Shown here piece after piece: positions 18,689-23,087 of a stretch of DNA of 41,941 bases. The stretch comes from Candidatus Nealsonbacteria bacterium (GTDB lineage Bacteria > Patescibacteriota > Minisyncoccia > Minisyncoccales > RBG-13-36-15): the NCBI GenBank assembly GCA_011050465.1, contig DRFQ01000008.1, positions 1 through 41,941 of the forward strand, read 5' to 3'. Under the pieces are notes generated by a model. It was not told the origin of the DNA and searched no databases. It saw nothing but the letters and a program-made list of their open reading frames with translations. A program made the position numbers and the translations under genes. Position 1 is the first letter of the stretch, and each line of letters begins with the position of its first letter.

Positions 18689-19960
18689 CTATATTTTTTT
18701 TATTATCCCGCCGCCCAAAAGCTCTTTTTCTCGATAAAACACAACTGATTGACCAAGGGTTATCGCTCTTTGGGGTTTTTTAAATTCTACCAAGACCTGC
18801 TTTTTATTTTTTATTCTTTGGTCTTTGATAATTGCCGGCATCATCTCTTGCCTATATCTGACTTTTGATTTTACTCTCAACGGTAGTTTTGGTTTTTTAC
18901 CTGAAATCCAATGAACGTTTCCTGCTACTAGCTCTTTTTTGTATAAATCTCTTTCATTTTTAGTAACAACCAAAAAATTTCGCTTTAAATCTTTGTCTAA
19001 AACGAAGTATGGCCCACCGGGCAATCTAATTCCCCTTCTCTGGCCAATAGTATAGAAAGCCAGACCTTGATGCTGACCAATGATTTTTCGTTTAGCATCA
19101 ATAATTTTGCTTGCCCTGTAGTGAGCTTGCTCTACTATGGGGCCTGGTTTTTGTTTTAGGTAGCGCTTTAAAAAATCATTGACTGTAGTTTGAATAAAGC
19201 ATATCTCTTGAGATTCTGGTATATTTAGAACTGGCAATTTAAATTTCCTGGCCAAAGAAATTACTTCTTTTTTAGTCAAATTCTCCAGAGGAAACAAAAT
19301 CTTTTTAAGTTGCTTCTGGGACAACTGCCATAAAAAATAAGATTGATCTTTTTCTTTGTCTTTAGCCCTTAATAATTTATAGATTTTGTTTTTTACTTGT
19401 AAGCCTGGGCCTTGGTCCCCCTCCGCGGTCTTGCTGCGAAAGACGGGGCGAAAACGGGTTTCCTGTTTCTTGACATAGTGACCGGTAGCCACATAATCAG
19501 CCCCTATGTCTAAAGCTTTTTCCAATAAAAGTCCGAATTTAATTTCTTTATTGCAAACCACACAAGGGTTTGGGGTAAAATTTTTCTTATGTTCTTTCAA
19601 AAAATAATTAACAATTCTCTTTTTAAACTCTTTTCCAAAATCTAAAACATAGAACGGAATGCCTAAAAGAAGGGCCACTCTCCTTGCTCTTTTTTCGGCC
19701 TCTGGAGAACAACACCTGTTCCACCTTTGCAAGACAGGATCACGCCAAAATCTCATAAAAACTCCTACTACTTCAAAACCAGCCTTTTTTAATATGGCTG
19801 TCGCCACGCTCGAATCTACTCCGCCAGACATAGCCACGAGAACTTTTTTCTTTTTTTTAAACCTTCCTGCTTGCCCCGCAGACCGAGCACTCAAGGCGTT
19901 GAGTGCTCGGTGCCGCGGGGACATTGCTATAATCACTTTTTTTTCTTTAGGCTTTCGCAT
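18689..19960 (-). CDS. mnmA: tRNA-specific 2-thiouridylase
   Basis: Makes the 2-thio group of the wobble uridine in tRNA-Lys, -Glu and -Gln. Seen: PP-loop SGGVDSS (45-51), catalytic C133 in FTPNPCVVCN, C254 in ESQEICFI, and GLAFYTIGQRRGI. The protein has 423 residues against about 360-370 normally. The excess comes from three palindromic insertions: at the N-terminus (residues 15-34), around residues 169-191 (RFRPVFRSKTAEGDQGPG), and near the AHYRASK segment. The first insertion separates two copies of a KKVxxAMS sequence, so the N-terminal strand of the domain is duplicated. Confidence 0.95.
   Translation of the reverse strand: MRKPKEKKVIIAMSPRHRALNALSARSAGQAGRFKKKKKVLVAMSGGVDSSVATAILKKAGFEVVGVFMRFWRDPVLQRWNRCCSPEAEKRARRVALLLGIPFYVLDFGKEFKKRIVNYFLKEHKKNFTPNPCVVCNKEIKFGLLLEKALDIGADYVATGHYVKKQETRFRPVFRSKTAEGDQGPGLQVKNKIYKLLRAKDKEKDQSYFLWQLSQKQLKKILFPLENLTKKEVISLARKFKLPVLNIPESQEICFIQTTVNDFLKRYLKQKPGPIVEQAHYRASKIIDAKRKIIGQHQGLAFYTIGQRRGIRLPGGPYFVLDKDLKRNFLVVTKNERDLYKKELVAGNVHWISGKKPKLPLRVKSKVRYRQEMMPAIIKDQRIKNKKQVLVEFKKPQRAITLGQSVVFYREKELLGGGIIKKI
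19114..19142. repeat. Palindromic insertion in mnmA (third)
   Basis: CCCTGTAGTGAGC and GCTCTACTATGGGG pair around a short centre. The frame is kept. The arms belong to the CCCCGTAGT-type palindromes also seen at 18050-18080. Confidence 0.6.
19874..19920. repeat. 47-bp palindrome in the 5' end of mnmA, between duplicated coding segments
   Basis: CCCCGCAGACCGAGCACTCA pairs with TGAGTGCTCGGTGCCGCGGGG almost completely. On both sides the minus strand encodes KKV(I/L)(I/V)AMS, once before (19921-19945) and once after (19827-19852), with different codons in the two copies. Confidence 0.8.
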
Positions 19961-20573: not shown

Positions 20574-21359
20574 TCAAGCTCTACTTACATTTTTTATTAT
20601 TTTGACAAATTCTTGAGGATCCAATGAGGCGCCACCAACCAAAAAACCTTGTAGGTTCGATTTTGCTGTATAACTTAAGGCATTTTGACTATTGATACTG
20701 CCCCCATAAAGAATAGGAATTCTCTTGGTTATTTTCTGACTATAAATCTTAGAGATAATTTTCCGAATAAAGATAGCCACCTTCTCTGCCCCTTCTGGCA
20801 AACAGGCTTTACCCGTTCCAATTGCCCAAATTGGTTCATAGGCAATAATAACTTGATTAATATCTTTTTCTGTAATTTCTCTAAGGCCTTTTTCAATTTG
20901 AGACTTTAAAATCTTCTGGGTTAATCTCTTTTTTCGTTCGTTTTCAGCTTCACCGATACATAAAATTGGCTTTAATTTTACCGAGAGAACAGCTCTCATT
21001 TTTCTGTTTATCATCTCATCGGTCTCTTTGAAATATCTCCGCCTTTCAGAATGGCCTAAAATTACATATTGGCAACCTAAATCTTTGAGCATTAGAAACG
21101 AAATTTCACCAGTGAAAGCTCCCTTTTCTTCCCAAAAACAATCCTGTGAGCCCAAGGCGAGTCCTCCGAAGCTCGTCTTTCGGTGAGCGAGGGAAGAGCC
21201 TCCTAAAATTGATAAATAAACAAATGGTGGACAAACTACTACTTCCGTGCTTTTGTTTTTGATATTTCTTAAGCCCCTTTTGACTGAACTAAAAAGGCGC
21301 TTGGCCTCTTGAAGAGTGGTGGGATTACATTTCCAATTGGCAACAATAATGGTTTTCAT
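20574..21359 (-). CDS. tpiA: Triosephosphate isomerase
   Basis: Interconverts dihydroxyacetone phosphate and glyceraldehyde 3-phosphate. Catalytic residues are all present: K10 in ANWKCN, H103 in LGHSERR and E175 in AYEPIWAIGTG; the phosphate-binding end YGGSINSQNA and GFLVGGASL is intact. 261 residues, slightly long. The surplus lies at about 53-66 (GGSSLAHRKTSFGG), which is the translation of a palindrome at 21156-21203 inserted in a surface loop before LALGSQDCF. It ends two bases before the start of the next gene's reading direction (21362), so coupling is tight. Confidence 0.96.
   Translation of the reverse strand: MKTIIVANWKCNPTTLQEAKRLFSSVKRGLRNIKNKSTEVVVCPPFVYLSILGGSSLAHRKTSFGGLALGSQDCFWEEKGAFTGEISFLMLKDLGCQYVILGHSERRRYFKETDEMINRKMRAVLSVKLKPILCIGEAENERKKRLTQKILKSQIEKGLREITEKDINQVIIAYEPIWAIGTGKACLPEGAEKVAIFIRKIISKIYSQKITKRIPILYGGSINSQNALSYTAKSNLQGFLVGGASLDPQEFVKIIKNVSRA
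21156..21203. repeat. Palindromic insertion in tpiA
   Basis: About 48 bp with imperfect arms (GGCGAGTCCTCCGAAGCTCG and, on the opposite strand, GGAGGCTCTTCCCTCGCTC). It keeps frame and encodes roughly 16 residues absent from usual triosephosphate isomerases. Confidence 0.65.
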
Positions 21360-21361
21360 AG

Positions 21362-21823
21362 TTAAATTAACTTAGATATTCCTAAGGTTAGAATGATGAC
21401 GATTATTCCAGCAAGCGAAGACCCAATTATAATTAAAGGCAGGGCTTTTTTAAAGGAAATTCCGAAAACAAAAGCAGCTATAGCTCCCGTCCAGCCGCCA
21501 ATGAAAGGAATGGGGATGGCTACCAAAATTATAACAGTTAAATTTTTTCCCCATTTTTCGAATTTTGACTGATGAATTTTTCTGGTATGGATAAAAATCC
21601 AGGTAAAAAATTGATCGAAAAATCCGAATTTCTTGCTCAGAAACCGAGAAACTGGACTAAAGATAGAAATGATTAAAATTAAGGGTACTAAATTCCCTAA
21701 AACCGAAAAAAGATAAGCTGACCAAACAGGCATTTTGTAAACTTCCAAGGCCATAGGAATTGATCCCCTTAACTCAACTACTGGGGACATGGCAATTAGA
21801 AAGGTTTTAAGTTCGGGAATCAT
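21362..21823 (-). CDS. Small membrane protein of the COG2426 (Sm_multidrug_ex) family
   Basis: 153 residues with about four hydrophobic helices. The N-terminal LIAMSPVVELRGSIPMALEVYKMP is the family signature (ELRGSIP), and IPIPFIGGWTGAIAAFVFGI is the second conserved glycine-rich helix. The family is annotated as small multidrug export protein, but transport was never clearly shown. Its ATG (21821-21823) overlaps the stop codon of the relic galT end (TGA, 21820-21822), proof of an earlier 4-base overlap with galT that an insertion has since broken. Confidence 0.8.
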   Translation of the reverse strand: MIPELKTFLIAMSPVVELRGSIPMALEVYKMPVWSAYLFSVLGNLVPLILIISIFSPVSRFLSKKFGFFDQFFTWIFIHTRKIHQSKFEKWGKNLTVIILVAIPIPFIGGWTGAIAAFVFGISFKKALPLIIIGSSLAGIIVIILTLGISKLI

Positions 21824-21879
21824 TGTTTTCTTAAATATTCGGCGGCTCTCTCTGGTTCGATAGTAGAAATCACGATCAC
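21820..21879 (-). pseudogene. Relic of the original galT 3' end
   Basis: On the minus strand this encodes VISTIEPERAAEYLRKQ followed by TGA. The true galT, 130 bases upstream, ends with nearly the same residues (EISTIEPERAAEYLRRQR). The DNA is about 90 percent identical over 50 bases. The relic stop overlaps the next ATG, the normal operon junction, so this is the ancestral end of galT cut off by an inserted palindrome. Confidence 0.85.
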
Positions 21880-21880
21880 A

Positions 21881-21985
21881 CGGTTTCCCCCGACCCCCCC
21901 TCTTTTAGATACCTTCGGTTTCTAACGTTTTTGCCCTTCGCTTCGCTCAGGACAAAAGCCTGTTTTTCCACCACGGGGGAAACCG
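21881..21985. repeat. Palindromic element between the two galT ends
   Basis: A perfect 12-bp inverted repeat CGGTTTCCCCCG / CGGGGGAAACCG bounds a 105-bp insert with an internal hairpin (GCCCTTCGCTTCGCTCAGGAC). Next to it, 21985-22004 is an inverted copy of the galT segment at 22042-22061 (one mismatch in 20), so direct and inverted copies of the same gene end flank the element. Confidence 0.8.
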
Positions 21986-22004
21986 AGATTTCGCCTATCG
22001 AACC

Positions 22005-23087
22005 CTATCTTTGTCTTCGTAAATATTCGGCGGCTCTCTCTGGTTCGATAGTCGAAATCTCTATCTTTGCTCCCATTTCAAACCCAGCCCAAGTTGAAGT
22101 TTTTGGCAGAATCGTCCAATGCCAATGGTAATAATCATAATTTTTGCCATCGCAAGGAGCAGTGTGTAAATAAAAGTTATAAGCCGGATCATTCAAGGCT
22201 TTATAGAGTTTATTTAAAGCTATTTTAAAGGCTTCGGCTAACTGCTGTTTTTCTTTTTCGGTAATCCTCTCAAAGTAAGAATGGTGTTTTTTAGGAGAAA
22301 TAATAACTTCAAAAGCAGATTTTGAGGCAAAGGGGCAGATAACTAAAAAATCCTCGTTTTCAAAAATTATTCGTTTTTTAATCTTTATTTCCCATTGAAC
22401 CATCTGGCAATAGATACATTTTTTATGAACCTTAAAATACTTTTTGGAATTCACCAAGGATCTTTTAAGATCAACGTCAATAAGTGGAATAGTTACAATC
22501 TGAGAATGGGGATGGACAATTGTTGCTCCAGCTTCTATGCCGTGATTATGAAAAATAGAAACATAACTAACAAACTTTTCTTTCATTAGTTCCAAATATC
22601 TCTGCTGATAAACATCTATTGTTTCTTTCACCTGGCTAATTGAAAACTGGGCTAATTGTTTTTCGTGGTCTCTGGTAATAACCACTTCGTGAAAACCAAC
22701 AGCGTTCATTGTTTGATATATATTGCCTTCAATTTTCTCGTCGAACTCAGGAGAAGGAATAAAGGCGGGATATTTGTTTGGAATAGAAATGGTTGTCCAC
22801 CCCGTTAGAAATTTTCTAATTCCTAGCGGGGCCAAATTTTCGAGCTTTTCGTTTGGAGGAAACACTTTTCTACTATTAGAAAAAATAACGGTAGGGATTT
22901 CTTGAGTATGAATCTGACAAAATGGACATCGACTCTTTGGAATAGTCTCTTTCTTTCGTCTTTCTTGCTTAAAAGTTTCGAGCCTCCGGGCTCTGCCAGT
23001 GGCAATAACTACCCAGTCCCTGGAGACAAGATCTAAACGTAGTTCTGAGGGAAATCTCGATTTTTTAAGTTTTCTCTTTTTTTTCAT
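22005..23087 (-). CDS. galT: Galactose-1-phosphate uridylyltransferase family protein
   Basis: HIT-superfamily nucleotidyltransferase that exchanges UMP between sugar phosphates. Seen: zinc-type CPFC (54-57), the nucleophile motif VHPHSQ at 191-196 preceded by HNHGIEAGAT, KCIYC in the second half and HWHWTILPK near the end. Residues about 84-96 (NLAPLGIRKFLTG) are encoded by a palindrome (22800-22831). Its start overlaps the glycosyltransferase stop (ATGA), so sugar activation and transfer are probably linked. The 3' end is duplicated downstream. The sugar specificity is not certain; ADP-glucose phosphorylase-like activity is an alternative. Confidence 0.85.
   Translation of the reverse strand: MKKKRKLKKSRFPSELRLDLVSRDWVVIATGRARRLETFKQERRKKETIPKSRCPFCQIHTQEIPTVIFSNSRKVFPPNEKLENLAPLGIRKFLTGWTTISIPNKYPAFIPSPEFDEKIEGNIYQTMNAVGFHEVVITRDHEKQLAQFSISQVKETIDVYQQRYLELMKEKFVSYVSIFHNHGIEAGATIVHPHSQIVTIPLIDVDLKRSLVNSKKYFKVHKKCIYCQMVQWEIKIKKRIIFENEDFLVICPFASKSAFEVIISPKKHHSYFERITEKEKQQLAEAFKIALNKLYKALNDPAYNFYLHTAPCDGKNYDYYHWHWTILPKTSTWAGFEMGAKIEISTIEPERAAEYLRRQR
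22800..22831. repeat. Palindromic insertion in galT
   Basis: CCCCGTTAGAAATT and AATTCCTAGCGGGG form a 32-bp near-perfect palindrome within the coding sequence. The arm is the same word that forms the ends of the element at 38844-38954. Confidence 0.75.

Follow-up and report, generated by a model that had tools for sequence, protein, structure and literature searches.

At the 3' end of galT in the window, the whole 41,941-nt stretch of DNA analysed here, a folded palindromic element separates two copies of the gene end that behave as two alleles, and the same layout recurs at many other gene ends. Along the plus strand the order is To-E-T'-Ti (Table 1), where To is the outer, displaced copy of the target gene end (T), E is the structured element, T' is an inverted copy of the E-proximal end of T, and Ti is the inner copy that belongs to the working gene. 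Our preferred reading, to which we assign a probability of about 0.48, is that E-T'-Ti is a gene-end-restoring element that was placed by pairing between T' and T and joined at the homologous point to the resident gene.

Table 1. Parts of the galT end in the window, with the genes on either side
Feature	Position	Strand	Sequence and basis
Next gene, small membrane protein	21362..21823	-	ATG overlaps To stop codon
To, outer (displaced, ancestral) copy of the galT 3' end	21819..21870	-	ends in ISTIEPERAAEYLRKQ and stop; TGA overlaps ATG of next gene
E, structured palindromic element, type 1	21871..21986	+	CACGATCACACGGTTTCCCCCGACC...CACGGGGGAAACCGA; other copies in the window's genome (G000) and order; covariation; fold
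E helix a, 5' arm	21881..21892	+	CGGTTTCCCCCG; covarying in family
E helix b, hairpin	21905..21925	+	TTAGATACC-ttc-GGTTTCTAA; covariation, fold
E helix c, hairpin, sequence variable	21928..21959	+	other copies, fold
E, most conserved stretch	21960..21977	+	CTGTTTTTCCACCACGGG; family copies
E helix a, 3' arm	21974..21985	+	CGGGGGAAACCG; covarying in family
T', inverted copy of the E-proximal T end	21987..22004	+	GATTTCGCCTATCGAACC; nearer Ti than To
galT (galactose-1-phosphate uridylyltransferase), restored target gene	22005..23087	-	
Ti, inner copy of the galT 3' end, belongs to working gene	22007..22058	-	

The initial annotation had described direct and inverted copies of the galT end around a palindrome of 105 bp, and coordinates, identities and perfect arms all confirm this. 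The direct copies (21819-21877 and 22007-22065) share 90% identity over 59 nt at a spacing of 188, the inverted copy (21985-22004 against 22042-22061) matches its counterpart at 95% as a 20-mer, and the 12-bp ends of the palindrome are perfect. Working galT has the C-terminal end EISTIEPERAAEYLRRQR at 22005, with its stop codon (22005-22007) at the T'/Ti junction. Because CACGATCA, which starts at 21871, recurs at other E copies, we assign it to the element, and the outer direct copy proper stops at 21870. To and Ti differ by two synonymous changes, one K/R exchange and the new stop; given that both carry the derived PERAA and have diverged so little, any donor was close. E is about 115 bases long at galT, and To-E-T' folded as single-stranded DNA (z = -5.5) gives one extended hairpin with side hairpins. 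The 42-kb window contains a single case of direct, inverted and direct copies in combination, and 20 shuffled versions of it together yielded one. All genomes used are drafts, and an assembly artefact is unlikely, since genomes assembled independently show this layout too.

Three further features were seen in the window. The start of mnmA (19860-19960, minus strand) is doubled, KEKKVIIAMS ... KKKKVLVAMSGG, around the in-frame palindromic insert GCGGCACCGAGCACTCAACGCCTTGAGTGCTCGGT, and its two copies differ mainly by silent or conservative changes; judged by sequence, a different element may follow the same principle here. In tpiA (21140-21200), an in-frame palindromic insert, GGSSLAHRKTSFGGL, is apparently out of place. 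The contig ends (1-132 and 41810-41941) form an identical 132-bp direct repeat, which may reflect an assembly overlap, a circular contig or a repeat.

Relatives without the element indicate which copy is the resident one. In the E-less genomes G084, G085 and G070, galT ends in AAEYLRKQ or a close variant, and its TGA overlaps or abuts the next gene. This is the junction seen at To, which makes To the resident end and E+T'+Ti the added stretch. The comparison with element-free relatives, suggested in the initial annotation as a check, thereby bears out its proposals that the outer copy sits in the ancestral operon junction and that the element came together with a fresh gene end. At fusA, E is absent from G090 and from G003, which belongs to the same genus as the window; the outer copies of G001 and G002 retain the downstream intergenic DNA, so that To is ancestral there too. 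At galT, fusA, gyrB and others, the copy carried with the element restores the gene and the displaced end lies on the far side, which is the arrangement of gene-end islands. As a separate observation, the window's galT has 73-75% amino acid identity to genes of other families (G084, G085 and G074) and 59-61% to those of its own family, and a possible cause would be horizontal replacement in one of the lineages.

The element belongs to a dispersed, structured family. About nine copies are present in the window's genome (772 kb) and about 100 in the class; G002 has 12 copies, and G090 and G046 have five each. Of the 247 genomes searched in the order, 33 match the pattern CTGTTTTYCN{1,3}CACGGG, with no more than 12 matches in any one of them, and the reversed pattern, used as a control, matches at most once per genome. 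In a sample of the class, 16 of 384 genomes match this pattern. Every real E among the matches listed for named contigs comes from Patescibacteria or from a MAG contig tied to the same order, which is only indicative of a restriction to Patescibacteria. Carriage by phages was rejected, as 48 viral contigs match the short pattern and contain no real E. The family occurs as two circular permutations: type 1, found in the window, opens at helix a, and in type 2 helix a is closed as the hairpin CACGGGGAGAT-accca-ATCTCCCCGACC and the opening falls between GACCCCYTCTG and GTCGC...TTAGA. In 29 type-2 cores, seven of 17 predicted pairs show compensatory changes, which in helix b include TT/AA, CC/GG and CT/AG, indicating that E is conserved as a fold. 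An Rfam search matched no family at either threshold, so a known structured RNA was rejected, and the part of the literature that was covered yielded no described family matching E.

Several groups of copies have features of their own. In the window's genome, L003, L004 and L015 have in common a small palindrome, ACTTCGTCCTGAGCTCAGTGTCGAAGGA, nested in the helix b loop, a sharing of sequence that hints at one E lineage having spread to new targets within that genome. A subclass (L056, L194, L210, L212, L219 and L231) has the common left flank AGTGGTAATA..TA[GTCGC] directly before start codons, as in the groES-groEL gap, together with the right end TTCCGATRTGGG; it is possibly a regulatory variant. 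At tRNAs (L208, L253, L257, L236 and L211) the left end of E directly abuts the apparent tRNA 5' end, and at a tmRNA (L252) it abuts the 3' end, in each case with no T'.

How often the galT layout recurs was assessed on 89 parsed E copies, with partners swapped between loci as the null and the 99th percentile as cut-off. About one copy was expected to exceed the cut-off in each comparison; To resembled Ti in 29 of the 89, T' resembled Ti in 32 and T' resembled To in 18, and 44 copies had at least one significant pairing. About half of the 89 have no recognisable T or T', which counts against our preferred reading. In a separate set of eight copies, mostly from other orders and judged by preset thresholds, To resembled Ti in seven and T' resembled Ti in five. 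Protein-coding targets, named from translations and not from a family search, are galT, fusA (start and end), rpsT and dnaX (start), and gyrB, rpsJ, GAPDH and polX (end); tRNA 3' ends are used as well. The rpsJ end is targeted in two genomes at neighbouring positions, and distant families use the same targets with a T' that fits the local sequence (L007, L207 and L354; L062, L205 and L233). To ends flush with E in about 20 loci, and T ranges from 17 nt to over 90 nt, often stopping at a start or stop codon. For gene starts and gene ends alike, the body of the target gene is on one and the same side of E. The polarity of E thus follows the position of the gene body, not the direction of transcription. 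This places its determination at the DNA level and speaks against a function in RNA, for instance in splicing; as E is sense at starts of genes but antisense at their ends, RNA splicing and translational bypassing were rejected.

The two direct copies carry different coding histories. Synonymous and non-synonymous differences between To and Ti number 17 and 1 in gyrB, 18 and 3 in fusA, 7 and 1 in dnaX, and 8 and 3 in GAPDH. The 19 coding loci, on which the argument rests, sum to 111:50 (an automatic sum that includes non-coding loci gives 129:101), compared with roughly 1:3 for unconstrained DNA. Given this preponderance of synonymous changes, To and Ti behave like alleles of a functional gene end. 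In gyrB of G002, the To-Ti divergence is about that of orthologues from different genera; To has its best DNA identity with G001 (64/79), and Ti with G170 (65/79) and G046 (64/79), a comparison that places neither copy firmly among the orthologues. The gyrB body is nearest to that of the family mate G001, and a Ti foreign to its gene body finds no support in this gene, as Ti and body are similarly distant from G001. Constraint on To is not uniform: in L007 the count is six synonymous to nine non-synonymous and To is without clear constraint, replacement changes are in excess in the To of both L007 and L207, and the To of L057 has a nonsense change.

These last loci bear on the idea that both gene ends are in use, with precise loss and re-gain of E-T'-Ti, much as in phase variation, keeping To and Ti under long coding selection. 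Such dual use would explain why To keeps its frame and its stop or start codon in the diverged pairs (gyrB, fusA, dnaX and GAPDH) and why the fusA To copies of G001 and G002 differ mostly at silent codon positions. We nevertheless judge it quite improbable, given the damaged To copies and the lack of an excised form in the assemblies.

The inverted copy bears on the remaining possibilities. At sites within hand-picked T' footprints that distinguish To from Ti, T' agrees with Ti at 26, with To at none and with neither at four, and every locus with informative sites agrees that T' goes with Ti. It follows that T' did not arise by simple fold-back copying of the adjacent To, and that E, T' and Ti share one allele history and To has another. 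The initial annotation had favoured fold-back template switching. In detail, such fold-back (or snap-back) would occur during replication: a 3' end at E would fold on the E stem, copy T into T', re-anneal upstream and recopy T, with E as a passive hotspot. Direct and inverted copies do adjoin a palindrome, the E stem does extend into a To:T' pairing in the single-stranded fold, and template switching between inverted repeats is documented in general (PMC8604942, PMC7202029). However, fold-back from the adjacent To predicts a T' equal to To, the reverse of the 26:0 count, and it leaves the allelic divergence of To and Ti unexplained; the palindrome belongs to a conserved family with scattered copies and had to reach the site in the first place, and the layout recurs at dozens of unrelated gene ends. 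We consider fold-back unlikely as the overall explanation. As a single local event at galT it finds no support, and it may still explain how T' first originated.

A different account takes E to be an old, fixed and immobile insert: strain exchange replaced the gene up to E and left To behind, and hairpin template switching kept T' equal to Ti. T' and Ti are close enough to form hairpins, the conserved coding ends are the sole homology remaining to the left of E, and the window's galT is nearer to other families than to its own, all of which this account accommodates. However, the differences between To and Ti often begin 3-6 nt from the E boundary, so crossovers would be needed at that boundary every time, and homogenisation should also act on To and T', which E brings together, yet T' never equals To. 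We therefore give little credence to exchange around an immobile insert. Homogenisation of inverted-repeat arms by template switching is documented in general (PMC8604942), and could yield part of the T' result.

The preferred reading, pairing of T' with T, accounts for the flush junctions, the tolerance of mismatches, the repeated use of conserved targets and the restored genes. The transferred unit would be E-T'-Ti, with the resident To displaced and the gene completed by Ti. The folded E would set its own 5' end beside the start of T'; on pairing of T' with the resident T, the 3' end of T would abut E like a nick in one helix and so become joinable, and since Ti runs on into the gene body the gene would be restored. 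We infer that the unit is mobile or passes from strain to strain, that it acts as single-stranded DNA, and that the T'-guided join is sealed by a trans-acting enzyme or by plain host repair. On entry into a new gene, T' would most likely be made by snap-back synthesis on the E stem. A partner enzyme was sought in the E-rich genomes, and neither a Y1 transposase, a reverse transcriptase nor extra integrases could be tied to E.

What we take to be new here is the To-E-T'-Ti layout, and the mechanism is put forward as a proposal. Comparison of the copies suggests that the E family represents a mobile element of a type not yet described, one that mends whichever gene it enters. We propose, more tentatively, a new minimal class of mobile DNA. 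Its members would be folded non-coding elements that bring along a target-specific antisense guide (T') and a second copy of the target's end (Ti), find conserved gene ends in further strains through pairing of strands, and do the gene no damage. Should E, T' and Ti move together, about 200 nt of non-coding DNA would spread through essential genes without breaking them, with the choice of target written in the element by base pairing. Such mobility would add a class of mobile DNA and account for the way in which insertions recur at a shared set of conserved gene ends in different orders of Patescibacteria; it would also suggest a new enzyme or competence-linked strand joining. Even if E is immobile, the recurring To-E-T'-Ti scar allows past exchange of gene ends among strains of mostly uncultured bacteria to be read from the sequence.

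Several known systems share part of this layout. Quasipalindrome template switching (PMC8604942, PMC7202029) makes or homogenises inverted copies beside a hairpin, as at E, but brings no dispersed element and no divergent gene-end allele. REP sequences, with their Y1 transposase RAYT, and bacterial MITEs are, like E, short, palindromic, multi-copy and intergenic, and an ordinary MITE or REP insertion with a long target-site duplication would accord with these traits. In contrast to both, E lacks a Y1 association and a short target duplication and has a duplicated gene end with an antisense copy. We find such an insertion very improbable, in line with the remark in the initial annotation that the arrangement is unlike an ordinary target-site duplication: T varies in length and often ends at a start or stop codon, T' is present at far more loci than expected by chance, and the copies differ as alleles of which T' goes with one. 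Membership of RAYT/REP was rejected because G002 (12 copies) and G090 (5) have no PF01797 match, and membership of MITEs because the type 2 ends, GTCGC and TCTG, are not inverted and T, at 17 to over 90 nt, is no fixed duplication.

Group I and group II introns that home with exon co-conversion resemble E in target pairing, in co-transfer of flanking coding sequence and in their use of conserved genes, but E-rich genomes have no reverse transcriptase and E has no Rfam match. A retro-element or group II intron was rejected, RVT_1 being absent from G000, G001, G002, G005 and G090. The attC sites of integrons are imperfect folded hairpins thought to act as single-stranded DNA. E is likewise an imperfect folded hairpin, but by eye it has no attC core sites, nor is an integron integrase evident, and it inserts beside unrelated targets. 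Genomic islands and satellites integrate at the 3' ends of genes for tRNAs or proteins and bring a substitute for the end that they displace. E resembles these gene-end islands in its insertion at gene ends, tRNA 3' ends included, in the element-borne copy that completes the gene and in the displaced end on the far side. No integrase is encoded by E-T'-Ti, which contains no ORF; one or two Xer-type integrases are found per genome, and none in G046, which has five copies. Unlike the islands, the E unit is only about 110-250 nt long, with no ORF and no linked integrase, and it also uses gene starts, adds a T' that matches the incoming end and occupies many target genes per genome.
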